Of a stretch of 36,020 nt of DNA, positions 1,404-33,409 are shown piece by piece; the first letter of the stretch is position 1, and each line of letters begins with the position of its first letter. This stretch comes from an uncultured Thalassovita sp. (lineage in GTDB: Bacteria > Bacteroidota > Bacteroidia > Cytophagales > Flammeovirgaceae). The position numbers were made by a program, and so were the translations under genes. The stretch spans positions 1 to 36,020 of the forward strand of contig CAKZMZ010000449.1 of NCBI GenBank assembly GCA_937129345.1. Direction: 5' to 3'. A model generated the notes under the pieces. It searched no databases and had not been told where the DNA came from. It worked only from the letters and a program-made list of their open reading frames with translations.

Positions 1404-4400
1404 TTACTCCTTTAGCACTTTTTTAGTATAGGTTTTGTCTCGCAAAGATATTTTTAGTAAGTACATTCCACTTGGAATTTTGCTTAAATCTATCCTATAA
1501 AAATGGGGTTGCTTTTGAACGTTTATAGAAAGCATCTTCCCCTTGAGGGTATGCAGTTCTATATCCGACGATTCAATCTGCGGAAATCTTGCTATGTTTA
1601 AATAGCTTTGAGCTGGCGAGGGAAAGATTACGACTTCATTAAGCACTCTACCATTTGGCAGTAAAACGTTGTTTACAGAAGTAATGGTATTTTGCCAGAC
1701 ATACAGTTCTTTTTCTTCGATATATGTGCAGCCCAAAGTATCTTTTACTAAGAGCTGCACTATTTGGGTTCCTACAGAGTCTAAGGTGATTTCGAAGTCT
1801 TGTCCATTACCCGACTGTCCTTTACTAGTTGTCCAAGTCCATTCAAGGCCATAAGCTGCTTTTGCTAGCAAGCTACCTGCCGCTATATTTACAGAATCGG
1901 GCATACTTATCAACTCTGTATCAGGAGAAGGATAGATGTCTATAAAAATCTGCTTTTTATCGCTCTCTAGGTCATCTGAGGTATTGCTTACCTCTAAAGA
2001 AACAGGATTTATAATGTTCTCTATTGTGTACTCCAACTGCTCAGCAATAAGCTCATCTCCCATATAAAACCTAAAACTGTTACCATTTTCAGGCGCAATG
2101 TTTAAGTCATTTCCAAAGCATACAAAAAAAGTATCTTTTACTGCAGGCAAGGGCGATTGTTTCAGAGCTACAATTTCATTAGATGAAAAATTAACACAAG
2201 GTACTTCACTGCTTACTCCTAAAGTAATGTTGTAAATATCTTTTTCAGCATAGGTGTGGTAAATAGTATCCATGTTTTCGTACTGTACGCCATCTCCCAT
2301 GTTCCAATGTAGAGAGAGGCCTTCTGTATTATTGGCCACTACTTTAAAAGTCTCACCGACTACTACATCATTTGGCACCTCCCAACTTACATTTTGGGTA
2401 GTATTTGAAAAATAAAGCGTTACAGCAACTTTTTCACTCTCAAATACGCTGTTGTGGTTGCTCACCCACACTATAGCTGAATCGCTAGTAGCTGGTACTT
2501 TTAGGGTGTTACCTTGAGCAAATGGTTGTGTGGCAGATTTTTGTGTGTAATACTTGTAATGCTCGCCGTCTTCCCAAACCAATAATGCACTATCGGCAGC
2601 ACAAAGTGTGGTATCCTGCACAAGCGGTGACTTGCTGTAGTATGGTGTATAATCTAGTTCTATAGCGGCCATGGCCATTTGTTCTCGTAATTCTAACAAA
2701 GAATGGCCTGCTACCAAAATGTATGGGACCTCCAATGTATCGTTTGGCGCCACGTTAAGAAAAGCTTGGCTATTTACCTGTAATACATCTGCATCGCCTG
2801 TAAAATTTTCTTGCAGTTCCCCTGTAAGCATTTGGTATTTTCCTGCATCAGAAAAAGTATCATTTGGGTTTAGTTGAGTATAGCCATGTCTATCTATGGT
2901 TGTTGTCTTGGCACTTTGGCTAAAAAGTTTTATCCCGAAATACAAGTCTTGGTGGTGCACATATCCAAAATCGTAAAGACTATCCCAAGCAGCCGTGTTG
3001 ATGTTTTTCTCATCCAATAAAAAATTGGTATACAGGCCTATAGCAGCATCCTTAATGGTGTCTGTACCCACATTGGCAATCTTATAGTTCAATTCTAAAT
3101 AGGGCCTGTGCTGATGTAAAGTGATAATTTGTTGTAGGTGCGTATCGGGATGCTTAAATACATCATAAAACGATTCTGTAATTTCTATCGAGCTATCGCC
3201 AATTACTGTTTGGATAGGTGTAAGTTGGGTAAAATCTGTACTTTTAGAAGTATCGACCACGCAAATGGCATCAGACACTTTTGTAGAATCTGTACCATAG
3301 ATCGCACCTGCATCAAATATGAGTTGCCTGTTTTTCCATTGTAGACCTAAGCCGTAGAGAGTGCCCTCATTTCCTATGTAGCCAAGTCGCCCGCTGCCCT
3401 CTAAACTCAACTTCCAATTTCCTTTCGTAATGTCAAAAAAGGCATCTGAATAAAGGAAAAAATATTGATAATCTTCATAATCACCATCTATGTAACTGAG
3501 CTTGAAATACATCTGATGGTTTTCTGGCAATGCTTCGCTTAAGCTTACCTTAAAGGGCGAAATAATGTTGTTGATAGAGTCTAGCTCATTTAAAGCGCCC
3601 AACTCAAAAACACTGTCGAGCATTTGCACATGTGGTGATAGAGATGTGATACTTACTTTGGCCGTATCGCTTAAAGCACTTAAAAAATTTGTAAACGACA
3701 TTGTAAGATTAGCCGTATCACCGCGAACCATAAGCCCTTTTCCCGAGCCTACCAAATTAAAATCGCTTGCTCTTACAGCTCTAAGACTACTGCCTTTTTG
3801 TAAAGCTTTTAATGTGTTTAGTCTGCCCTTTCCTAATTTATCTTTAAAGTTGATGTTGCCAGCCAGATGGTATACATCGTCGGCAGATACACGCAGAACC
3901 TCTGCAATTTGCTTGGCTGTGTAGTTTGGATAAGCCGCCCTTAGCAAGCCCGCAATTCCTGCAACAAAAGGCGCTGCATAAGAAGAACCTGTTACAGCTT
4001 TATATTCTTCTCCATTGCTTAGGTATGTGGTAGGCACTTGGTGACCTGGCGCTAACAAGTCTACAAAATAGCTATAACTTCCGGTCCAAAACCTTTCATC
4101 ATTTTGCATAGAGTGAGCCACAGAAAGTACATTTTCATAAGAAGCAGGATAAAAATCCCAATGCCCATTGGTATTGCCTGCTGCTGCGATTATCAACACA
4201 TCGTGCACTTCGGTTATGTAGTTGATGATGTCTTGCTCGTACTGAGAAACACCTCCCCCTTGCCTACCCAAAGATATGTTGATAACTTTACACCCATTTT
4301 CGGCTGCGTACAACATCGCTTCAAATACATTGAATATCAACCCTGATGAAGTAATGATACTTATAGGCATAAAGCGTGTGTCGTGGCCTGTTCCGAAAGT

Positions 4401-5129
4401 TCCGAATGCATCGTTGACTTTGGCAGCTGCCACTCCCGAAACTTCGGTACCATGGCTAAAAATATCATTTACATTGGTACTCATTTCAGCCATATTATAA
4501 CCTAATGAGTCATCTACATAGCCATTGTTATCGTCATCTACACCTGCTTGGCCGTATCTTTCTGCGTTATTGTAATATAATTGCGGTGCCAAGCTAGGAT
4601 GATCGATTTTTACTCCGGTATCTACAATGCCGATCACTACTGATGTATCTCCTTTTGAAATATCCCACGCTTCATAAGTTTGGGTATTTACATGGCCCCA
4701 ATGTGCACCTTGGTGTGTGTCATTAGGCGTATAGAGCAATTGGTAAGCATGTAAGGGTTCTGCATATTCTACCCACTCCTCAGCGCTTAATTGTTTAATG
4801 CGTTTGGCTTTTTCTACCTCGGGTACCATAACTTTATAAATAGCGCCTAGGTCATTGGCAATCTTGGCTTTTTCGCGCAAACGCCTGTTCGAGGCTGTAT
4901 TGAGGTTTTTTGTATTCCTTACTTTTCTTAGATTGGTGAGGCCCAAACTCCGCAATTTTTCTTCATTTGCATCTAAACCTTGTGTTGCATATCTAGCATT
5001 GGCAGCCTTTTCTTTAACCTTTACTACAATGGTAGACAAACCTGCTTGCTGGGCATGTGTTTCGCCCCAAAAAGAAAAGATGATCAGGTAAAAAAATAAG
5101 GAATGAAAAGTAGAATACGTATTTGCCAT
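1404..5129 (-). CDS. Secreted S8 (subtilisin-like) serine peptidase with PKD-like domain and T9SS type A sorting domain
   Basis: Catalytic blocks: GIVDTGVKIDHPS (Asp), SHGTEVSGVAA (His), GSSYAAPFVAGIAG (Ser). PKD-like segment LHWNMGDG..YHTYAEKDIYNITL. C-terminal IFPSPAQSYLNI...GMYLLKISLRDKTYTKKVLKE is a Por/T9SS sorting signal. Confidence 0.93.
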   Translation of the reverse strand: MANTYSTFHSLFFYLIIFSFWGETHAQQAGLSTIVVKVKEKAANARYATQGLDANEEKLRSLGLTNLRKVRNTKNLNTASNRRLREKAKIANDLGAIYKVMVPEVEKAKRIKQLSAEEWVEYAEPLHAYQLLYTPNDTHQGAHWGHVNTQTYEAWDISKGDTSVVIGIVDTGVKIDHPSLAPQLYYNNAERYGQAGVDDDNNGYVDDSLGYNMAEMSTNVNDIFSHGTEVSGVAAAKVNDAFGTFGTGHDTRFMPISIITSSGLIFNVFEAMLYAAENGCKVINISLGRQGGGVSQYEQDIINYITEVHDVLIIAAAGNTNGHWDFYPASYENVLSVAHSMQNDERFWTGSYSYFVDLLAPGHQVPTTYLSNGEEYKAVTGSSYAAPFVAGIAGLLRAAYPNYTAKQIAEVLRVSADDVYHLAGNINFKDKLGKGRLNTLKALQKGSSLRAVRASDFNLVGSGKGLMVRGDTANLTMSFTNFLSALSDTAKVSITSLSPHVQMLDSVFELGALNELDSINNIISPFKVSLSEALPENHQMYFKLSYIDGDYEDYQYFFLYSDAFFDITKGNWKLSLEGSGRLGYIGNEGTLYGLGLQWKNRQLIFDAGAIYGTDSTKVSDAICVVDTSKSTDFTQLTPIQTVIGDSSIEITESFYDVFKHPDTHLQQIITLHQHRPYLELNYKIANVGTDTIKDAAIGLYTNFLLDEKNINTAAWDSLYDFGYVHHQDLYFGIKLFSQSAKTTTIDRHGYTQLNPNDTFSDAGKYQMLTGELQENFTGDADVLQVNSQAFLNVAPNDTLEVPYILVAGHSLLELREQMAMAAIELDYTPYYSKSPLVQDTTLCAADSALLVWEDGEHYKYYTQKSATQPFAQGNTLKVPATSDSAIVWVSNHNSVFESEKVAVTLYFSNTTQNVSWEVPNDVVVGETFKVVANNTEGLSLHWNMGDGVQYENMDTIYHTYAEKDIYNITLGVSSEVPCVNFSSNEIVALKQSPLPAVKDTFFVCFGNDLNIAPENGNSFRFYMGDELIAEQLEYTIENIINPVSLEVSNTSDDLESDKKQIFIDIYPSPDTELISMPDSVNIAAGSLLAKAAYGLEWTWTTSKGQSGNGQDFEITLDSVGTQIVQLLVKDTLGCTYIEEKELYVWQNTITSVNNVLLPNGRVLNEVVIFPSPAQSYLNIARFPQIESSDIELHTLKGKMLSINVQKQPHFYRIDLSKIPSGMYLLKISLRDKTYTKKVLKE

Positions 5130-7722: not shown

Positions 7723-8751
7723 TTACTTTTTGGCAAAATAAACCATGCCTATTAAGCCCAATCCTATTTGATAAACCGTTTGAAAACCGTGGTTGACAAT
7801 GGCCAATGAATTGCCTTGTAAGTGTGTAAAACCAAAAATTACTACGGCTTGTGCTACTATAAAATGATAAGCGCCCAAACCGCCTCCTTGTATGGGTAAA
7901 GATTTGGCAATACTACCCATTGCCATAATAACCAAACCTGCTTTTACACTGGCGTCTATGTCAAAAGCAAAAAACCATAGGTAAGTACTCAGAAAATAAT
8001 TGAACCAAATCAACAGGGTATAAATGATAAACAGCGAGGGTTTTTCTACATTTCTAATAGACGTTATACCGCGCCAAACTTCGTAAAAACGCGATTTGAT
8101 TTGTTTTTCTCTTATAAACTTTATAATTCTGCCCTTAAATAACCATAGCATTAATACAAAAAATAAGAGGATGAATACAGCAATGGAAAGCAACATCCAA
8201 ATATCATTAAACCAACCCAAACCTACCTTAAGAACAGGTTTTACCATATATTCTAAGGTAAAAACGGCTATTTCCTCATAAGCCCAAAGTACCGAGATTA
8301 TGCAAACAAATAAGAGGGATAGCACATCTATAAAACGCTCTGTAATTACAGTGCCAAATGCCGACTTAAAAGGGATGTGGTCTGCTTTTTTTAGGGCTAC
8401 ACATCTTGTGATTTCACCCATGCGTGGTATGGCATAATTTACCATATAACCGAACATTAAGGCATTAAAAGCCTTTACCAAACCTGGTCTATGCCCTAAG
8501 GTTTTTAATAAGAGCAACCATCTTAATGAGCGGATGATGTTATTGAAAACAGACACAAAAAATATGGGTATTGCCCACCAATAATTTACACTTTTTAAGC
8601 TGGCTAGTAGGTTTTCTGTACCCTGGTTTTGGATAATAAAATAAAGTAGTCCTATACCTATGGCACTAAAAAATGCGTAATAAAGCAATTGCTTGCTCTT
8701 GCCTTGTCTTTTCCACTCCTCAGGAAGCTTTATTACAGCAAGTGTATTCAT
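7723..8751 (-). CDS. Lysylphosphatidylglycerol synthase/UPF0104-type flippase-like transmembrane protein
   Basis: 342 aa, multiple TM helices; FFVSVFNNIIRSLRWLLLLKTLG, FGYMVNYAIPRMGEITRCVALKK, GTVITERFIDVLSLL, SIAKSLPIQGGGLGAYHFIVAQAVVIFG match the LPG_synthase_TM pattern. Confidence 0.88.
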   Translation of the reverse strand: MNTLAVIKLPEEWKRQGKSKQLLYYAFFSAIGIGLLYFIIQNQGTENLLASLKSVNYWWAIPIFFVSVFNNIIRSLRWLLLLKTLGHRPGLVKAFNALMFGYMVNYAIPRMGEITRCVALKKADHIPFKSAFGTVITERFIDVLSLLFVCIISVLWAYEEIAVFTLEYMVKPVLKVGLGWFNDIWMLLSIAVFILLFFVLMLWLFKGRIIKFIREKQIKSRFYEVWRGITSIRNVEKPSLFIIYTLLIWFNYFLSTYLWFFAFDIDASVKAGLVIMAMGSIAKSLPIQGGGLGAYHFIVAQAVVIFGFTHLQGNSLAIVNHGFQTVYQIGLGLIGMVYFAKK

Positions 8752-8754
8752 TAT

Positions 8755-11499
8755 TTAATAAGTCAGTTTAAAATCGAGCTGATTGATTTGTTGCATAATT
8801 TGAGCAACCTGCTCTGCAATATTACAACTACGCTTTATTTCATCTACTATTTTGTCTTTCAATTTTTTATCTAATCGCTGCCCTTTGTATTTTTTTCTCA
8901 ATTCTAAGATTTTCCATTCTACAGGAGACTTGCCTTTTAGTTGATATTCCCAAATTACAGAAGGTAAGCCCCCAACTTCCAATTCATCATTGATCAAAAT
9001 GCAGCCTATTTTTTTTAGTATTTTGATTTGTTCTAGTTTTTTTACTGAATCGTCTTCATCTATATTTTTTATTTTTATTTGAGGGCTATTTTCCAATTCT
9101 CCTAAAAAGGCCTTACTGAGTGCCTTACCAAAGAAAATCCACTCCCACATATTGTACAAAAATGGAATTTTTGGTTCACCAAAAGCCAAATGGTAGCCAA
9201 ATATTTCTTTGTATTGAGCACTATTTAAGATAGCCAAACTGTAGTAAAATAAATGTTCTTTAGTAAGAAAACCCAGTTCTTTTCGACAAGCATTTTCGGC
9301 TTTTACAAAGGTTTGAACCAAAGCTAAAAATCGGTTGATTTCGTTCTCGATGGTGCTCAGCAGTTTTTTCCTTTCTCTAGCATCCTTTTTTAAAATTTTT
9401 ACTTTTTTAAGAAAAGCCTCGGCAATTTCGTAGTATTCGCTTACCTCTTTCGAAACCCTTTCTTCTTTGTTTGCTACGCATGTAGCTTCTAATTGCAAAG
9501 TAAACTTGTTGAGTACAGGTAAACTTAAAGTTACTTTTTTTAAGTTTTCGATGTGTCCACTCAGTTTTTGGTCTTTTTGGCGTGTATTTTCGGTAAACTT
9601 CACCTCAACATTGCTAACCAAAATGTTTCGAAAATATAAATAAGCAGTATCTGAAATATTAAATTCTTTGCCTCCCAAAAGCGGTAAGCAAAAAAGCTTA
9701 TCTAAAAAGCTATAGGTAGGAAAATAATCTGTGGTAATGACCAAGCTATCCTTCTCAGTATGATCAAAGGCGATACACAAAAATTGATTATTTCTGTAAA
9801 AATCAATATCTGCAAACTCTAAATCGCTATAAACATGCTTTGCAGCTACGTTTATTGGGGCATTAAAAGGTTTCTTTAATAGCTTTACAGCTCGATTATT
9901 AGCAAAGTTGGTTTCGGGAGGCAGTTTCTTTTCCTTTTTAAAAAGAGGCAGAAATCTTTTATTAAATATAGCCTCATTGTTATTGGCTTTTGCATACAGA
10001 GGAAATACGTTTTTATGATGATATGGAAACCATTGTTTTTGGTCTGTAGGCAATTGCCATCGATCCTCCTTCACTAAATCTGATTTGACGCTTTTGTAAC
10101 AGAGTTTTTTTGCTATATTATCACTTTCCAAATAGGCAATAGTAGCGCATAAAGGCTGATCAAGTTGTATTTCCTCTATTTCTCCAGAAAAGTTCTTAAC
10201 TAACCAACCCCTTACATTACCAAACTTATGGTTGTACAATAAATGATTTTCTTGCAAAGAAATCAATTTTGTATTTGCAGGTAACTGTTCGACTACATTT
10301 CTAAAATATTCTTTTTTAACCTCTATACTTTTGTAATTTTTCGATATAGGGCTCGCTTCATTTTCGGTGTAGGTGTTCGTTGGGTAGGTTAAAAAGTCTA
10401 CTGCAAAGAGTGCAGCATGTTTAAAATTTGGTAGCATATTTTCATTTTCTACTTTGTAGGAAAATAATTTTTCGCTTGTTTCTCCAACATTATCCAACAT
10501 TGCCAAATCTACTAATGCATGCTCAATAGAAGACGCTAAACGATGTGATTTAAAAGTGCAAAAAGCTGTATAAAACGCCCAAAGAGATTCACTTAAAACA
10601 AAAACCTTGTGACTTTGAGATGTATCTAAAATGATGGCAGTCAGATCCAAGCCTATGCTTGTAGATACCATTATTTCTGAGTGATCAGTAATGTAATGTG
10701 TAAGATAGTCTAGATACTTAACTTTAATTTTTACTAAATCTGATACTGCAAAATCCTCCTCCTTGCCTTTTTCTCCTAATGCAATTTGGGTACTTTCTAA
10801 AATGTATTCGAGTGTAATATGTAAATTATCGCTTTTTTGGATAAGATTGCTGACAAATAAACAGGCTTCTTCACTTAAAACATCAACTTTTTCCTCTAAT
10901 TTCTTTGAGGTTTCTTGAAACAGAAAAAATATGTTGTTTTTTTGAAGTGTCTCTAAATATTGCTCTTTACCTCTTATAGTTTCAAAAAATAGCCGATGAA
11001 AAAACATCCATTTTAAGAGCACCGCTGTTCTATATTTTTTATTGATGGATTTTCTGAAAAAGCCATCTAACTTTTGGAAGTTTTTAAGCGCTTCTTGTTC
11101 ATGGGTCAGTTTTGAATAGAAGGAAAGAAAATCACGCTTTAATATTGAAATAGCTTTTCTATCGTCTTTGTGACAGATTTTTCTGAAAAATTTGAATATT
11201 TTCTCCTCGATTTCGCCCAGTGCCTCACTTAGCTCTATTTCCTTTGTTTCTTTCCTTGAACTTAAAGTTAGACTGGAATCATTTAGAATTATGGCGTTAC
11301 CCTTTAAATCTTTCCCGTTGTCTAAAATTAAATCGGCTATAACTGTTCCTTTCTTACTAAAAAGGTTAAAGCGCTTTGCATCAACTTCTACAATTAGCAA
11401 ATCATTTTTAAATACTGCTTCGATGATGTAGGTCAAAAAAGGGGAATATTTGTCGTATTCCCCTTCTAAGTATTTCTTGAAAAATCGAAAGCTATTCAA
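8755..11499 (-). CDS. 914-aa protein with a Type ISP restriction-modification C-terminal (specificity) domain-like region; no recognisable catalytic motifs
   Basis: The C-terminal third, LFYYSLAILNSAQYKEIFGYHLAFGEPKIPFLYNMWEWIFFGKALSKAFL...ILINDELEVGGLPSVIWEYQLKGKSPVEWKI..RRKYKGQRLDKK.., follows the order seen in Type ISP/IIG enzymes (FYYIYAVLY..YR..Y..FL...FPRIPF....F..L..LG..L..LH...I.IN....GV.PEVWEYQIGGY.. W). No NPPY, no DPAxGSG and no PD-ExK motif found by eye. Confidence 0.6.
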   Translation of the reverse strand: MNSFRFFKKYLEGEYDKYSPFLTYIIEAVFKNDLLIVEVDAKRFNLFSKKGTVIADLILDNGKDLKGNAIILNDSSLTLSSRKETKEIELSEALGEIEEKIFKFFRKICHKDDRKAISILKRDFLSFYSKLTHEQEALKNFQKLDGFFRKSINKKYRTAVLLKWMFFHRLFFETIRGKEQYLETLQKNNIFFLFQETSKKLEEKVDVLSEEACLFVSNLIQKSDNLHITLEYILESTQIALGEKGKEEDFAVSDLVKIKVKYLDYLTHYITDHSEIMVSTSIGLDLTAIILDTSQSHKVFVLSESLWAFYTAFCTFKSHRLASSIEHALVDLAMLDNVGETSEKLFSYKVENENMLPNFKHAALFAVDFLTYPTNTYTENEASPISKNYKSIEVKKEYFRNVVEQLPANTKLISLQENHLLYNHKFGNVRGWLVKNFSGEIEEIQLDQPLCATIAYLESDNIAKKLCYKSVKSDLVKEDRWQLPTDQKQWFPYHHKNVFPLYAKANNNEAIFNKRFLPLFKKEKKLPPETNFANNRAVKLLKKPFNAPINVAAKHVYSDLEFADIDFYRNNQFLCIAFDHTEKDSLVITTDYFPTYSFLDKLFCLPLLGGKEFNISDTAYLYFRNILVSNVEVKFTENTRQKDQKLSGHIENLKKVTLSLPVLNKFTLQLEATCVANKEERVSKEVSEYYEIAEAFLKKVKILKKDARERKKLLSTIENEINRFLALVQTFVKAENACRKELGFLTKEHLFYYSLAILNSAQYKEIFGYHLAFGEPKIPFLYNMWEWIFFGKALSKAFLGELENSPQIKIKNIDEDDSVKKLEQIKILKKIGCILINDELEVGGLPSVIWEYQLKGKSPVEWKILELRKKYKGQRLDKKLKDKIVDEIKRSCNIAEQVAQIMQQINQLDFKLTY

Positions 11500-26242: not shown

Positions 26243-27259
26243 TTACTCAGCATCCAACTTCCACTGCTTTTCGTTGACCTTATCCTTTACAATATCTAAT
26301 GTCTCTGAAACAACGCCAAGAGCCAGTTCATTAAACTTTTCATCATTGGCAGTGTGTAACAAACCGTCGAATACCAAAGAGGCGATTTCCTCTACTGCTT
26401 TATCTCTATGGTTGGCCACGTCTTCTACCGCTTCATTAATTACATTAAATACAATGTCGCTTACTAGTTTTTCTACCCTATCAGCTACATAGCTGCCAAG
26501 TATAGGCACTAACTCTAGAGTCATCACTTCTTTATTTTTCTCCATGGCCCGCACCATTAATTGATCGATGTATTTTCTGATATCTTCCCTATGCAATTGA
26601 TAGGTATTGCTCAAGGCCACGTCGACCCGTTCTGAAATCCAATGGGTAATTTCTTCTTTTTGAGGTACCAAAACGTCTTCTACGATTTTGTTTGAGACGG
26701 GGCTTCCTTTTTCAAATTCTGTTTTTACGCCATCTATAACATTGACCACTACCCGATCTGACACTTCCTCTAAGAAGACCTTATAATAGAACTTTATTTG
26801 CTTAAAAATCCAAGTGTTGGTCAGGTTGATCACTCCCATGCGCTCTAAGCGATAGACCATAGAAAAGACCCGAAGTACCCTTAAAAACCTAAATCCTCCT
26901 AAAGGGATACAGCCTAATACATCATACCAATGTATAAATGGATAAAATATCCAACTATGGTAGGTTTTTCTGTAAATAGCCAAAGCCCATCTAAAAAGCA
27001 GTTCTGCTATAAAGATGCTCACAAACACAAGATCTATCAGAATAAAGTTCTCGTGTATAGCCTGATCATACCAAGCAAAAAACACAGGAGCCACCTCAAA
27101 ATAAAAATCTCTAATGATTTGGTAGGAGTAAGTCCACTCAAAAAGTATTAGAAATAAATTGGCCGACACCAAAGCCAACATAATAACATCAATCGCAAAA
27201 AACTCTAAATCATGGCTTTTTTTCAGTTTGTCTAAGTTGAATAGCTTCTTCTGATTCAT
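26243..27259 (-). CDS. Voltage-sensor-like (ion-transporter-type) membrane protein with long cytoplasmic helical C-terminus and no apparent pore module
   Basis: Four hydrophobic N-terminal segments. S2-like ILIDLVFVSIFIAELLFRWA, S3-like WYDVLGCIPL, S4-like FRFLRVLRVFSMVYRLERMG (R spaced every 3). About 180 aa of hydrophilic helix follow. Confidence 0.6.
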   Translation of the reverse strand: MNQKKLFNLDKLKKSHDLEFFAIDVIMLALVSANLFLILFEWTYSYQIIRDFYFEVAPVFFAWYDQAIHENFILIDLVFVSIFIAELLFRWALAIYRKTYHSWIFYPFIHWYDVLGCIPLGGFRFLRVLRVFSMVYRLERMGVINLTNTWIFKQIKFYYKVFLEEVSDRVVVNVIDGVKTEFEKGSPVSNKIVEDVLVPQKEEITHWISERVDVALSNTYQLHREDIRKYIDQLMVRAMEKNKEVMTLELVPILGSYVADRVEKLVSDIVFNVINEAVEDVANHRDKAVEEIASLVFDGLLHTANDEKFNELALGVVSETLDIVKDKVNEKQWKLDAE

Positions 27260-28769
27260 CTAAAAGTATTTTTTGTTTTGCTGACAAGTATAACCAATAT
27301 ACCGACTCATTGCGCCCCAGATACTGAGCATTGAACCAAGCAGCCTCCCTAAGCTTTGTAACACTTGGGCTGTTGGCCACATTATTTTGATCTTCAACTC
27401 GATCTTTTACAATATATCTTAGTGTAAAATATGGAATATTGGCAAAGAAGAGAAAAACAAATAGCAAATGGTATTTATACTTATAGTTGAGTGCTGAAAA
27501 ATACTGTATGAAAACGATGCTGATGATAAACAAAGAAGGTACGGCCGCACGCATTAAAAAGTCATTAAAGTAACCGACTACATAAAAAGGAATAACAAAC
27601 AGAACAGCAATTGCCGCCCACCAAATCAGCTTCCAATCTTGATTTTTTACAAAGCGGTAACTTAACCAAGCATAAATACCAAACTCTATCATCAAAAAGA
27701 CGAATATTTTCGGCAGCCAAGATTTACCCGGAATGGCTTCCCAAATCCATCCGCTTTCTGCTATGCTGTAATGCGCTTGAAAGAAGAAAGCTACCAATAC
27801 AGTAAGCGATAAAGCGCCGAGCAAATTCTGAAAACTGATAAATGATAGAAATCCCTTTTTAAATAAAAGCATCAATAAAATAATGGTCAATCCTATAGAA
27901 TTAAACACAGACCAAATAAAAGTGAGCGATACAATAAAGGCCGCACTCTTTAAGGATTTTAATTGAGAGAATTGATGAAAAATCAAAGCGGCTGCCAGCC
28001 AGCCTCCCAACACGTGCTGCGGGCACCAAGTCATACTGACTATAGGTGCATAAAACTGTAGCATATTGTTGTGCACCACGGCTTCTGCTGCAATTTCTTC
28101 CCTAAAAACATGAAAGGGTATCAAATCTCCTAATAAAACCCACTTTACAGGAATCTTAAATAACGCATATAAAAAGTCTTGTCCGCCAAAAAATAAGAAT
28201 ATGAGCATGGCGATTAAAGGTAGATTTTTTCCTTTCCAAAGCAGTACCCATCTTAGCACCGAGTAAACTCCAAAAAAAGTCCACAAAAACATTAAAGCAT
28301 CTGCCCAAGCAATGCCCACTAATTTTGCCAGCAAAGCCACAGGCAAATAGTAAGCAAGATAATAATTGAGATGTACAGCGCTTTCGACCAAAAAATTCTC
28401 TTGATAGACAACCGGCCAAGGCTGCACAATTAAGTCTCGCAAAACTCCATAATGCTTGTCCTGATCACCTTGGAAAGTAAAGCCGCCAATGCCAGAAACA
28501 GCACAGACCACTACGGCAACCGCAACAACCAATAAATGAACCCGAAAAGATAGGTTGTCCTCTTTTATGCCATTAAATTTTCTATGGAAATCTGACAAAA
28601 CCAGATAGAAAGACCCCAATAGAATAAGTAAGACCACCAAGGCCAACTCCCACCTAAACCATCCTGCTACAAAAATGAGATTGGGCAGCAATAAGTAAAG
28701 CAATGAAAAGAAAGTAAGTCGATATGTGCTACTTTTTTTAAGTAAGTTTAGCTTATGTAATACGTCCAT
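27210..28769 (-). CDS. Polytopic membrane protein, tandem paralogue 4 (uncharacterised, possibly GT-C-like)
   Basis: GIGGFTFQGDQDKHYGVLRDLIVQPWPVVYQ; LNYYLAYYLPVALLAKL; TWCPQHVLGGWLAAALI; YFNDFLMRAAVPSLF; AWFNAQYLGRNESVYWLYLSAKQ. Confidence 0.8.
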   Translation of the reverse strand: MDVLHKLNLLKKSSTYRLTFFSLLYLLLPNLIFVAGWFRWELALVVLLILLGSFYLVLSDFHRKFNGIKEDNLSFRVHLLVVAVAVVVCAVSGIGGFTFQGDQDKHYGVLRDLIVQPWPVVYQENFLVESAVHLNYYLAYYLPVALLAKLVGIAWADALMFLWTFFGVYSVLRWVLLWKGKNLPLIAMLIFLFFGGQDFLYALFKIPVKWVLLGDLIPFHVFREEIAAEAVVHNNMLQFYAPIVSMTWCPQHVLGGWLAAALIFHQFSQLKSLKSAAFIVSLTFIWSVFNSIGLTIILLMLLFKKGFLSFISFQNLLGALSLTVLVAFFFQAHYSIAESGWIWEAIPGKSWLPKIFVFLMIEFGIYAWLSYRFVKNQDWKLIWWAAIAVLFVIPFYVVGYFNDFLMRAAVPSLFIISIVFIQYFSALNYKYKYHLLFVFLFFANIPYFTLRYIVKDRVEDQNNVANSPSVTKLREAAWFNAQYLGRNESVYWLYLSAKQKILLDESEEAIQLRQTEKKP

Positions 28770-28771
28770 AG

Positions 28772-30316
28772 CTACTCTTCTTTTTTTGTAGAAAGATGTA
28801 GGAAATAAAAAGAGCGGTTATCGCCAAAATACTGCGTGTTGAACCAAGCTTCCTCAGCCAATTTATTAAGACCACCCATATCGCCGATCCGTACCCTGTC
28901 CGAGGCAAAACCATTTTGCCAGCGTTCTTTCAAAAAACCAGGGAAATGTATCGCTATAGATATGGCTTGTGGAAGCACCACGCCAGCAAAAACTAAAATC
29001 ATCAAAAAATATTTGCAATGGCTTTTTATGCCCTGAAATGCTTGGTAAGCCAATAAGCTTAACAAGAACAGAGAAGGTACTACCGCCCGCATAAGCAAAT
29101 CGTTCATGTTGCCCAAAACAAAAATAGGAATGAGGGACATAAATAATAGGATTGAATAAAACATAAATCTATCTATCTTACTATATGCAAAATAATATAT
29201 GGCTAAAGCGATATATAAAAACTCAAATAATAAAAATACTGGCCATTTGTAGAATAATTTATCCCACTCTATATATTGCCATATAAAGCCTGAATCTGAA
29301 ATGGAGTGATGTGATAGAAAGAAAGAAAGTACAAAAAAACCTAGTAAGATACCGATGCCGTTTTCCCAGCTTATCCAACTGGTAAAATTTCTATGTTTAA
29401 AAAACATGGCAGCTATTATTGGTAAAAAGCCCGCCACATTAAAAACTGACCATAGCGGCATGAGGCAAAGAATGAACAAAACATACTGCTGTCCTTTATT
29501 TTTTGTGTAGATGTAATACAGCAAGGCAGTGGCCAACCAAGCCCCAATAATGTGTTGCGGTGCCCATGATATCGCAAAAAAGTTGGTAGGATACCGCAAA
29601 ATGGTATTATGAAAAACACAAACTGTAGATACTTCCTGCTCAAAAATGCTTTGGGCAATGGCCTTATCACCCAAAAAACCATTAATGTTGAGCTTGATAA
29701 AGGCATACAAATAATCTTGCCCGCCTAAAAAAAGCAAAAAACACAAAGGCCAAAAAACATGCTTGGTTTTACCCAAGACCACAAACCACAAAAAAGCCAA
29801 ATAAAGCCCTAGAAAGGACCACAAAATAATCCAATTGTCTACTGAGTTGGGATGAGTTATTTTAGCCAAAGCGGCAGGCGGTAAAAAGTAGGCAAAATAA
29901 TAATTTAAATGCTGGGGCCCTTCTAAACCGTGTACACTATCGTAAACAACAGGCCAATCTTTATAGACCAAATCGTATAGCATGCTGTAATGCTTAATAT
30001 GGTCACCTTGAAAATGAAACCCGCCTATGCCCGAAAACCAACAAATAAAAAGGGCTGCAAAAGCAATTAATAAATGTTGTTTTACAGTAGGAATTTGTAA
30101 GTCAGTATCCAACCTAAACTTCCAAATTGATATCCAAACCAACGATGCCAAGCCAAACAATAAAACAGCCCAATAAGTCCTGAACCAAGTAGCGAAAAAA
30201 AGTAAGTTTGGTAACAAGAGATACAAAACAGTACTATTGAAGAAAATCCTATGAAAATTCTTTTTTTCCTTCATCCGATGTTTTTCAACATGAGTATCTA
30301 TCGTCAATTCAGTCAT
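28772..30316 (-). CDS. Polytopic membrane protein, tandem paralogue 3 (uncharacterised, possibly GT-C-like)
   Basis: GIGGFHFQGDHIKHYSMLYDLVYKDWPVVYD; LNYYFAYFLPPAALAKI; SWAPQHIIGAWLATALL; NMNDLLMRAVVPSLF; AWFNTQYFGDNRSFYFLHLSTKK. Confidence 0.8.
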   Translation of the reverse strand: MTELTIDTHVEKHRMKEKKNFHRIFFNSTVLYLLLPNLLFFATWFRTYWAVLLFGLASLVWISIWKFRLDTDLQIPTVKQHLLIAFAALFICWFSGIGGFHFQGDHIKHYSMLYDLVYKDWPVVYDSVHGLEGPQHLNYYFAYFLPPAALAKITHPNSVDNWIILWSFLGLYLAFLWFVVLGKTKHVFWPLCFLLFLGGQDYLYAFIKLNINGFLGDKAIAQSIFEQEVSTVCVFHNTILRYPTNFFAISWAPQHIIGAWLATALLYYIYTKNKGQQYVLFILCLMPLWSVFNVAGFLPIIAAMFFKHRNFTSWISWENGIGILLGFFVLSFFLSHHSISDSGFIWQYIEWDKLFYKWPVFLLFEFLYIALAIYYFAYSKIDRFMFYSILLFMSLIPIFVLGNMNDLLMRAVVPSLFLLSLLAYQAFQGIKSHCKYFLMILVFAGVVLPQAISIAIHFPGFLKERWQNGFASDRVRIGDMGGLNKLAEEAWFNTQYFGDNRSFYFLHLSTKKEE

Positions 30317-30319
30317 GCT

Positions 30320-31816
30320 TCAATCTCTACTTAAATACTTGCCATAGAAAGAATCGCCCTCACCCAAATACTGCCTATGGAACCAATGCTTTTTCTCCAT
30401 GTCTTTAAAAAGTGTATTGTTCTCAATCTTGGGCAGGCCTGTTTGCCATTTTAAATGATGTAAATGCGCTATCATTAAAAAAAATGAAAAAGAGCAAGTA
30501 GCGAGAAATAAAACAAGCAAGTGTTTTTTAAAGCGATGACTCATGCTCTTATAAAAAGCGACAGTAGCCAACACAAATACAAAATGCAAAGGCATTGAAG
30601 CCCGCATGAGCAAATCATTGTATAAACCGAGTACATACCAAGACAAGGCAAATAAGCTCAAGTTACAGAGCATCCACAGCCTAAAAATTGAATGTTTTTT
30701 TAGAGGGATGAACATCAACAAGACATAAATGCCGAATTCAAAGACTATAAAGCTAAGCAGTCTAACAAACCAGTACTTTGAAGGATTATGTTGCCAAATC
30801 CAACCCTGTTCACTAATGGGTAAATGAGACTGAAAATAAATGAAAACCAAGAGGCCTAAAGGCACGCCCAACAATAGGTTGGCATTCGAAAAAACAGCTT
30901 TTCCTTTTTGAGAAATAATACCATATAAAAAAATTGGCAACAGGCCTATGGTGCCTAAAATAGACCAAAGGGCACTTAAAGACAAAACCAAAACACTTAG
31001 CGAATTATCTTTTTTATAAATGCTGTTTACCATTAAAGCAGTAGCCAACCATGCACCTAAAGCTTGCTGTGGCACAAATGTAAAATCAAAAGCTGCTGAA
31101 AATTTTCTCAGAGTAAAGTCATAATAAGACATTTGCCACATGAGCTCTTTTAAGAGGTCTCTACTACCTTCTACATCAAATGCAGCATGAAAAGCATGTT
31201 TGCACAAGGTAAAAATAGTATCCTGCCCATCTAGCAAAAAGAAAATGACCAATGGCAACAGTATGCTTTTCTTACTTTTAGTCAACCTCACAAGCCAGCA
31301 CAAAACAAGATACAGTCCCAAAACTGATTCAAAAAATAGAAATACCAAAGCTGCTTGCAGGCCCAGTATTTTGCCAAGTAGCGCCGCAGGCAGGTACCAA
31401 GCAAAGTAATAAACCAAGTACAGCTTTTCGCCTTTATCTATAATACTAACCGGCCAAGGACTTTCTACTAAAATCTTTAGAATAGCATGATGCTTGGGCA
31501 AATCGCCCTGCGGCAAAAACAAACCAACACCTGTAAGCAGGCAGGCCAAGAAAGCAATGAGTAAAAGCCATAAGTTGGCTTTATCACTAAAAAAGTCATT
31601 GACCCAATGCCTTATATCTAGATTAAAGTTTACGGCCTTTAATTGCTTATAAACCACCAATACAAATAGAATGAAAACAGCACTCGCAATCCATCCTTTA
31701 AACCAAAAAAGTACAAAAATCAAGTTGGGCAATAGCAGATATGCTACTGAAAATAGTACCAAAGGTTCCGCACGAGCCGTCTGTTTACTATCCCTTATTT
31801 CCAATAACTTATTCAT
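30320..31816 (-). CDS. Polytopic membrane protein, tandem paralogue 2 (uncharacterised, possibly GT-C-like)
   Basis: GVGLFLPQGDLPKHHAILKILVESPWPVSII; LVYYFAWYLPAALLGKI; TFVPQQALGAWLATALM; LYNDLLMRASMPLHF; HWFHRQYLGEGDSFYGKYLSRD. Confidence 0.8.
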   Translation of the reverse strand: MNKLLEIRDSKQTARAEPLVLFSVAYLLLPNLIFVLFWFKGWIASAVFILFVLVVYKQLKAVNFNLDIRHWVNDFFSDKANLWLLLIAFLACLLTGVGLFLPQGDLPKHHAILKILVESPWPVSIIDKGEKLYLVYYFAWYLPAALLGKILGLQAALVFLFFESVLGLYLVLCWLVRLTKSKKSILLPLVIFFLLDGQDTIFTLCKHAFHAAFDVEGSRDLLKELMWQMSYYDFTLRKFSAAFDFTFVPQQALGAWLATALMVNSIYKKDNSLSVLVLSLSALWSILGTIGLLPIFLYGIISQKGKAVFSNANLLLGVPLGLLVFIYFQSHLPISEQGWIWQHNPSKYWFVRLLSFIVFEFGIYVLLMFIPLKKHSIFRLWMLCNLSLFALSWYVLGLYNDLLMRASMPLHFVFVLATVAFYKSMSHRFKKHLLVLFLATCSFSFFLMIAHLHHLKWQTGLPKIENNTLFKDMEKKHWFHRQYLGEGDSFYGKYLSRD

Positions 31817-33360
31817 GGCTTTTTGGCTAGATACTTATAAAAAAAGGAATCCACTTTACCGAAATACTGAGTATTGAACCAAGCTTGCTTATTGATGAGC
31901 GTAAGCGTTTCGGCTTGGGCTACAGAAGGGCCATAGCGCTTTTTTACACGATGCGACCCATTGAAATAATAGCGAAAACAACATAGCATCACAATAAAAA
32001 CTAAAGCGTATTTCAACTTAAGGCTTATGTTAGCTTGCATTGCCTTGGCCACTAAAAAAATGAGTGAATACCAAGCAGGACCCGTAGCCCGCATGGCAAA
32101 GTCTGCATTTTTACCAATAAAAATAAGCGGGAAAATCGCTAGAACTATCACTGCCAAAAACAGTAAGTATTTGTAATCTTGTTCAGCCCTAATGAGAAAA
32201 AAGACCAACAGAGAAATTATTCCGAATTTAACCAAAATGAAGATAGGGTATTTTACAAAGAAGTTGATATGTGGCAGGGCTTCCCATATCGATTTAATTG
32301 GCTGGGGCAAATGTGCTAGGTAATAGCTTGAAAACAGCAAGCAAAGTAATATGCCTAAAACATTGGCAATAGAAAATATTGATGAGGTGTTTTTAATCAA
32401 TATCAGTAAAACCAAGGGCAACAAACCAAGGGCAACAAACGGAGACCATAATAAAGTCAATCCCAAGGTGAGTATGCTGGCGTCAGATTTAGTTGGATGT
32501 AAAAGATTTTGAAGTAATAGTGGAGTGGCTAATAACATGGGCAAGGTATGCTGAGGTGCCCATTCGTATTGGGTCAAAAAAGTTGCATAGCTCGGCGTAC
32601 GGTTATCAAATATAATGTCACCGGTATAAAGCTCTGAAAGAAAAAGCCCTACATTGTAATCACCTTGAATTATTCCCCTACCTAAGAATTTTAGCAAGCC
32701 ATAAACATTCTCCAAATCGCCAAAAAACAACAGCAATAAAACCCACCAAAATCGTTTCAACTTGGCGATGCGCACGAACCAACAAAAACCTAGAAATAAA
32801 CCTATGCTCGACCAAATGAGTACAAACAGTTCTACAAATGAGGCACTTGTAAGCTTTGCCAAAAATACTGGCGATAAGTACCAAGCCAAGTAGTAGTCTA
32901 AGAAAACAGGTTCAGAAATAAATGGGTGGTTAGTATAAGTAACTGGCCAATTTTTTAGCAGTAAATCTCTCAATACCGCATGGTGCTTTTCATAATCTAC
33001 CACTTGAGGTTGAAAGTTGCCAATACCTACATACCAAGTAAGCAGCAAGGCCAAAATCGCATAAAACAATAAATGGCTTTTAGTGAATTGTACCGTTCCA
33101 TTTTTCTCCATTTTATTTTGAACGGAACGGTTGATTGTATAAGAAAGGGCTATTATAAATGGGATACCTATGCAAGGTTGTAACCAAGTACCTAAAAAAA
33201 TAAGATTGGGCAAGGCCAAATAAACGTAAGTGCCAACGCGCAGATACTCATGCTGTGTGCAGCTATGGCGAGTATTTCCAACATTAAAAAAAGATTGAGA
33301 TGGCAAAAGATGTTTAGGGTAAATCTTTTGCTTTTGCCTCAATAAAAAAGTCTCCAACAC
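31813..33360 (-). CDS. Polytopic membrane protein, tandem paralogue 1 (uncharacterised, possibly GT-C-like; GTG start)
   Basis: GIGNFQPQVVDYEKHHAVLRDLLLKNWPVTYT; LDYYLAWYLSPVFLAKL; EWAPQHTLPMLLATPLL; KNADFAMRATGPAWY; AWFNTQYFGKVDSFFYKYLAKKP. Overlaps the next gene by 4 nt (31813-31816). Confidence 0.8.
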   Translation of the reverse strand: MLETFLLRQKQKIYPKHLLPSQSFFNVGNTRHSCTQHEYLRVGTYVYLALPNLIFLGTWLQPCIGIPFIIALSYTINRSVQNKMEKNGTVQFTKSHLLFYAILALLLTWYVGIGNFQPQVVDYEKHHAVLRDLLLKNWPVTYTNHPFISEPVFLDYYLAWYLSPVFLAKLTSASFVELFVLIWSSIGLFLGFCWFVRIAKLKRFWWVLLLLFFGDLENVYGLLKFLGRGIIQGDYNVGLFLSELYTGDIIFDNRTPSYATFLTQYEWAPQHTLPMLLATPLLLQNLLHPTKSDASILTLGLTLLWSPFVALGLLPLVLLILIKNTSSIFSIANVLGILLCLLFSSYYLAHLPQPIKSIWEALPHINFFVKYPIFILVKFGIISLLVFFLIRAEQDYKYLLFLAVIVLAIFPLIFIGKNADFAMRATGPAWYSLIFLVAKAMQANISLKLKYALVFIVMLCCFRYYFNGSHRVKKRYGPSVAQAETLTLINKQAWFNTQYFGKVDSFFYKYLAKKP

Positions 33361-33375
33361 GGCCTTAATAAGTTA

Positions 33376-33409
33376 AAAAAATAAATGCCTATTCTAAGAC
33401 TAGGCATTT
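33376..33409 (-). terminator. Intrinsic terminator after the SDR-type threonine dehydrogenase gene
   Basis: Minus strand AAATGCCTA-N9-TAGGCATTT followed by ATTTTTTT. Confidence 0.8.

Follow-up and report, generated by a model that had tools for sequence, protein, structure and literature searches.

The stretch of DNA analysed here (hereafter the window) comprises 36,020 nucleotides (nt) of contig CAKZMZ010000449.1 from an uncultured Thalassovita sp. (assembly GCA_937129345.1; Bacteroidota, Cytophagales, Flammeovirgaceae in the GTDB lineage). Its minus strand carries four head-to-tail open reading frames (ORFs), each called as a polytopic membrane protein of approximately 500 amino acids (aa), which we refer to as paralogues 1 to 4 (Table 1). 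Paralogues 4 and 3 overlap by 4 nt, and the two following junctions are gaps of 3 nt and 2 nt. A preliminary description, made from the sequence alone, had read these ORFs as clearly homologous but strongly diverged copies of one gene, and a search of the genome bore this out: with the paralogue 1 protein as query, the three sister proteins came up with E values of 4e-86, 9e-71 and 1e-55, without a fifth copy, while pairwise identity among the four is 27–35%. Homology, predicted fold, residue conservation and linkage, at loci elsewhere, to GtrB-like and sugar-nucleotide genes lead us to regard the family as very probably glycosyltransferases of the GT-C(A) class, most likely active and using polyprenyl-phosphate sugars.

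Table 1 Features of the four-gene array in the window.
Feature	Position	Strand	Length (aa)	Description	Basis
Paralogue 4	31813..33360	-	515	GTG start, first gene of the array; first-loop motif VDYEKHH; predicted GT-C-like	ORF; homology (E 1e-55)
Paralogue 3	30320..31816	-	498	First-loop motif GDLPKHH; predicted GT-C-like	ORF; homology (E 9e-71)
Paralogue 2	28772..30316	-	514	First-loop motif GDHIKHY; predicted GT-C-like	ORF; AlphaFold model
Paralogue 1	27210..28769	-	519	First-loop motif GDQDKHY; predicted GT-C-like	ORF
Terminator-like hairpin	33375..33406	-		TGCCTA-9 nt-TAGGCA followed by a T run; located upstream of paralogue 4, after the SDR gene	Read directly from sequence

The hairpin that separates the array from the upstream short-chain dehydrogenase/reductase (SDR) gene has a loop that falls outside the pattern scan used for hairpins. 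Its T run ends approximately 15 nt before the start codon of paralogue 4, with no obvious promoter room downstream. Judged from this element, the array may form its own transcription unit, and the hairpin could possibly act as a leader or attenuator.

Conserved residues and predicted topology

Five motifs had been proposed to unite the four proteins. All five occur in each paralogue, but across 49 family members, over which conservation was counted, only the Asp of the DxxKH motif is invariant. In the numbering of paralogue 2, this residue, Asp105, is the sole invariant charged position (49/49); 48 of the 49 members have His or Arg at position 109, whereas the Lys of the motif is present in only 10. 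The N-terminal YLxLPNLxF, the WP pair, K152, P-[QN]-[HQ], W289 and G-x-x-N-D-x-x-x-R are also strongly conserved. All four paralogues keep D105, K108, H109, W121, P122, K152, P253, W289, G402, D406 and R410, and N405 is replaced by Ala in paralogue 4.

In the predicted structure of paralogue 2, D105 lies directly before helix 106–118 and after transmembrane (TM) helix 78–94, and the corresponding residue of a Burkholderiales homologue (L024), D96, lies directly before helix 97–109. According to work on AftB (PMC12041299), an essential Asp at the tip of juxtamembrane helix 1 is common to all GT-C(A) enzymes, and the modelled placement of Asp105 is in keeping with such a catalytic residue. The positive-inside charge pattern of the 49 sequences predicts that the D105 loop, N405-D406-R410 and the C terminus are periplasmic; the predicted active-site side would face the periplasm, as in GT-C(A) enzymes. 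GT-C enzymes with a late Arg in contact with the lipid phosphate are known (PMC7801869). R410, which precedes a late TM helix (46/49), is a candidate for this role by its position, and K152 (46/49) likewise fits by position.

Predicted fold

Foldseek searches of the PDB were carried out with AlphaFold models of paralogue 2 (pLDDT 89.3, pTM 0.92) and of L024, which is encoded beside a GtrB-like gene (pLDDT 87.3, pTM 0.91). The L024 model matched AftA with a probability of 1.00 (E 1.4e-3 and 5.7e-3), followed by EmbC (0.95), AftD (0.82) and PglB (0.72); the best protein outside the GT-C fold among the best 50 matches was AmtB (0.69). The paralogue 2 model gave a weaker result, with PIG-U, a GT-C-fold protein, as first match (probability 0.47, E 0.15), and the highest query TM-scores in its list belonged to EmbA, EmbB and AftA (0.27–0.34, against at most 0.14 for proteins of other folds). 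A search of a viral structure library returned no informative match. The GT-C(A) assignment is made because a consistent set of GT-C(A) enzymes tops the list, not because of any one score. The models, the position of the invariant Asp and the GtrB-like neighbours described below thus agree with the preliminary view that the proteins are reminiscent of GT-C glycosyltransferases and are enzymes rather than structural proteins.

The closest structural relatives, reached through the L024 model, are the mycobacterial arabinofuranosyltransferases AftA, EmbA-B-C and AftD, which share the Asp that follows a TM helix at a juxtamembrane helix. The embC-embA-embB genes are likewise tandem paralogues. In contrast to these enzymes, with which they share no detectable sequence similarity, the four proteins of the window have no large C-terminal domain; some homologues do carry an extra C-terminal region of approximately 350 aa (L076, below). 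The ArnC-ArnT system (PMT_2, PF13231) offers the same GT-C(A) logic, with an Asp in the first catalytic periplasmic loop and a polyprenyl-phosphate donor, the latter inferred for our family, which differs in that two additional TM helices at the N terminus precede the catalytic loop and in that no PF13231 match is obtained. PIG-U, the weak first match of paralogue 2, is a eukaryotic, non-catalytic subunit of the glycosylphosphatidylinositol (GPI) transamidase.

Scattered transporter matches in the Foldseek lists, together with the position of these membrane proteins beside GtrB-like genes, a setting that also calls for a flippase, could be taken to indicate a lipid-linked-sugar flippase or another transporter of unrelated fold. 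We consider this very unlikely: with the L024 model, transporters reach query TM-scores of at most 0.21 whereas GT-C proteins reach 0.31–0.41, profile–profile comparison with MFS gave a probability of 0.1%, and the invariant Asp at the tip of the juxtamembrane helix is a GT-C(A) signature (PMC12041299).

Sequence relatives and distribution

No Pfam or NCBIfam model scored above cut-off in any of the four paralogues, in line with the earlier remark that no named function could be recognised; the proteins form an unnamed family of a known kind, new as far as Pfam and NCBIfam go. A TgpA_N match to paralogue 2 (4e-5, below cut-off) was taken as spurious, being seen in one of the 49 members. A PDB sequence search with the family profile gave no useful match to any solved structure. 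Among the 49 members, none matched the PMT_2/ArnT profile at E 1, none matched the AftA/Emb or Glucos_trans_II profiles, and a single one matched YfhO (PF09586), at E 0.4, which does not place the family there. DUF2298 (PF10060, ‘YYY’), a family nearly absent from the phylum, has a similar D...H, WP and YY appearance but was rejected, as no member matched its profile at E 1. Profile hidden Markov model searches against sets of PMT_2, N-terminally truncated YfhO, Wzy_C and MFS proteins likewise yielded no useful match.

Relatives were found in Dyadobacter, Emticicia, Runella, Siphonobacter, Rhabdobacter, Accumulibacter, Sulfuritalea, a Burkholderiales metagenome-assembled genome (MAG), Verrucomicrobiota and Acidobacteriota. 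The family thereby reaches Bacteroidota, Verrucomicrobiota, Acidobacteriota and Pseudomonadota, and in almost every case its genes are single or scattered; none was found in the phages, plasmids or viral contigs searched. Within the order of the window, the gene occurs in 49 of 391 genomes and 18 of 130 genera, with one to four copies each; because no more than four candidates were scored in any genome, the copy numbers are minimum values. The idea that the quartet might be conserved in order across Cytophagales did not hold: among the matches listed from the 391 genomes, only the window has an array exceeding two members, and one other genome (G560) has an adjacent pair. The genera reached include the polyphosphate-accumulating Accumulibacter, and naming the family as GT-C would give a function class to many hypothetical proteins and would add a branch to a superfamily that is hard to detect.

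Several relatives depart from the common form. One homologue of 874 aa (L076:7925-10549, minus strand) is a longer version with an extra C-terminal region of approximately 350 aa, predicted to be periplasmic and belonging to no known family, and further long ORFs of the family occur in G458, G465, G637, G620 and G646. In two Dyadobacter genomes (L041:4978-9419 and L048:5070-9545), two divergent members flank a conserved protein of 371–372 aa with no known family. In Runella, a homologue (L018:5688-16597) is clustered with several B12-binding-type radical SAM proteins, a nucleotidyltransferase and methyltransferase-like genes.

Linkage to GtrB-like genes

Analysis of gene neighbourhoods revealed a glycosyltransferase family 2 (GT2) gene in 13 of 96 positions adjoining homologues, compared with 1 of 456 other positions (Fisher 8e-10, kinship ignored). 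The GT2-linked loci span Emticicia, Accumulibacter, Sulfuritalea, the Burkholderiales MAG, a Verrucomicrobiota MAG and a Dyadobacter MAG, and the GT2 example that was tested had as its best PDB match GtrB sll0501 (6e-81), followed by ArnC. In the order survey, GtrB-like genes lie 156, 293, 1020 and 2212 nt from a homologue in G649, G670, G643 and G366, respectively. The operon in G643 encodes, in order, an FdtA/QdtA-like ketoisomerase, a QdtB-like aminotransferase, an ArnC/GtrB-like GT2, a methyltransferase and the homologue, a gene set that could plausibly make a dTDP-3-amino-3,6-dideoxy sugar, convert it to its lipid-carried form and transfer it. In G560, a GT2 gene and then an SDR gene precede the two homologues, and the proteobacterial loci also hold NeuB, GT41 and ABC transporter genes. 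At the locus of the paralogue 2 orthologue in G005, kdsB starts 57 nt downstream and an MsbA-like gene lies nearby, in an order repeated in G010; this linkage provides a hint, from one lineage, towards lipopolysaccharide (LPS). Donor and activity can be tested directly with the single-copy homologues that lie beside GtrB and with the FdtA-QdtB-GtrB operon.

Three-component systems that combine a GtrB donor-lipid synthase with GT-C logic have been described (PMC11127046). The arrangement of a GtrB/ArnC-like synthase beside a GT-C-like protein, found here in several lineages, resembles the GtrA-GtrB-Gtr(type) systems of O-antigen glucosylation and the GT136 three-component systems; the window genome differs from these in that the quartet is not beside GtrB, no GtrA was found in the genome and the proteins have no Glucos_trans_II match. 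Its GtrB homologue is instead encoded on a separate contig that also holds GT2 and Wzy_C-ligase-like genes. Among genomes of the taxonomic family, four of the six that carry the gene, and none of the twelve that lack it, have a GtrB with 60% or more identity to this protein (p 0.005, kinship ignored).

The Wzy_C-ligase-like gene on that contig, and the occurrence of polytopic, periplasmic-facing enzymes near surface-polysaccharide genes, would also suit a polymerase or ligase of the GT-C(B) type (O-antigen ligase or Wzy-like) acting on diphosphate-linked glycan donors. This appears very unlikely, since the L024 model matched WaaL with a probability of 0.12, profile–profile comparison with Wzy_C (PF04932) gave 0.5%, which does not assign the proteins to that family, and the observed linkage is to synthases of GtrB type, which make monophosphate-linked sugars.

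Several points weigh against the GT-C(A) assignment. No family was matched at the sequence level, and profile–profile comparison with PMT_2 gave a probability of 6.5%, although the same test also missed the link between two known GT-C sets, PMT_2 and N-terminally truncated YfhO, and these comparisons were uninformative overall. Neither model has a Foldseek match below E 1e-3, and the window protein’s own model yields weak GT-C matches, the best of them to PIG-U, which is described as enzymatically inactive (PMC7801869). The GT2 adjacency statistic ignores the relatedness of the loci, and in the window genome GtrB lies away from the quartet, no GtrA flippase was found, and no gene within the window ties the quartet to glycan synthesis.

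Origin of the four copies

In a phylogenetic tree, the array does not resolve as a single clade; three of its members group with orthologues from related genomes. Paralogue 1 pairs with a gene of G005 and G010 that adjoins the SDR and aminotransferase pair also found next to the window array, paralogue 2 with another gene of these genomes at a different locus, and paralogue 4 with a gene of G001, a genome of the same genus that is 77% complete and whose copy lies at a contig end. Paralogue 3 stands alone in the tree, with no one-to-one orthologue found. On the basis of the tree, a recent tandem amplification of the quartet was rejected; because paralogues pair with orthologues in other genera, the duplications predate the split of these genera.

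The preliminary description had offered sub-specialised substrates or a hetero-oligomeric complex as reasons for retaining four copies. The first fits better: orthologues of individual copies sit alone at dispersed loci in relatives, and we therefore favour four separately specialised enzymes over an obligate four-part complex, which seems unlikely, whereas pairing of some paralogues is possible. The proteins might, in a related reading, be GT-C-fold pseudoenzymes or scaffold subunits, similar to PIG-U in the GPI transamidase, that assemble into a hetero-oligomer in which one member or none is catalytic. Four translationally coupled paralogues would suit a complex, heterodimeric GT-C enzymes do exist (EmbA-EmbB, PDB 7bvc), and PIG-U is the first match of paralogue 2. 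However, D105, H109, K152, W289, D406 and R410 are kept in all four proteins, homologues are mostly single or dispersed genes, and the orthologues of individual copies stand alone in relatives; a scaffolding role is on this evidence quite improbable. The four-gene array lends itself to work on how specificity diverges among GT-C enzymes.

Proposed function

What we infer for the family covers its activity, the donor and acceptor, the roles of residues and the way the copies share the work, as follows. A cytoplasmic GtrB/ArnC-like GT2 would load a sugar onto polyprenyl phosphate, a flippase would turn the product to the periplasmic face, and the GT-C protein would transfer the sugar to a periplasmic acceptor, probably a surface glycan or a glycolipid such as LPS. 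Catalysis would depend on Asp105, which lies at the tip of the first juxtamembrane helix, and His/Arg109, Lys152 and Arg410 may help to hold the sugar and the lipid phosphate. The four copies would be old and separately evolving, with differing donor or acceptor preferences, and would have been gathered into one operon in this lineage. More broadly, and with somewhat less than even confidence, we suggest that a GT-C(A) family spread over at least four phyla serves GtrB/ArnC-type donors that include rare 3-amino-3,6-dideoxy sugars, and that the four-enzyme array modifies a single surface glycan, either at four sites or with four sugars.

Other genes of the window

Directly downstream of the array, a gene for a 338-aa protein (26243-27259, minus strand) starts at an ATG inside paralogue 1 and shares 50 nt with its end. 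This protein has no assigned family and consists of an N-terminal membrane part, with a sub-threshold Ion_trans match, and a long C-terminal part. Farther away on the same strand, and between metabolic genes, an ORF of 914 aa (8755-11499) matches the Type ISP restriction-modification C-terminal specificity domain (3e-18) and is adjoined by a gene for an LPG_synthase_TM (PF03706) membrane protein (7723-8751). The minus strand also encodes a 1241-aa subtilase (1404-5129) with PKD/Ig domains and a secretion-system sorting tail (Por_Secre_tail).

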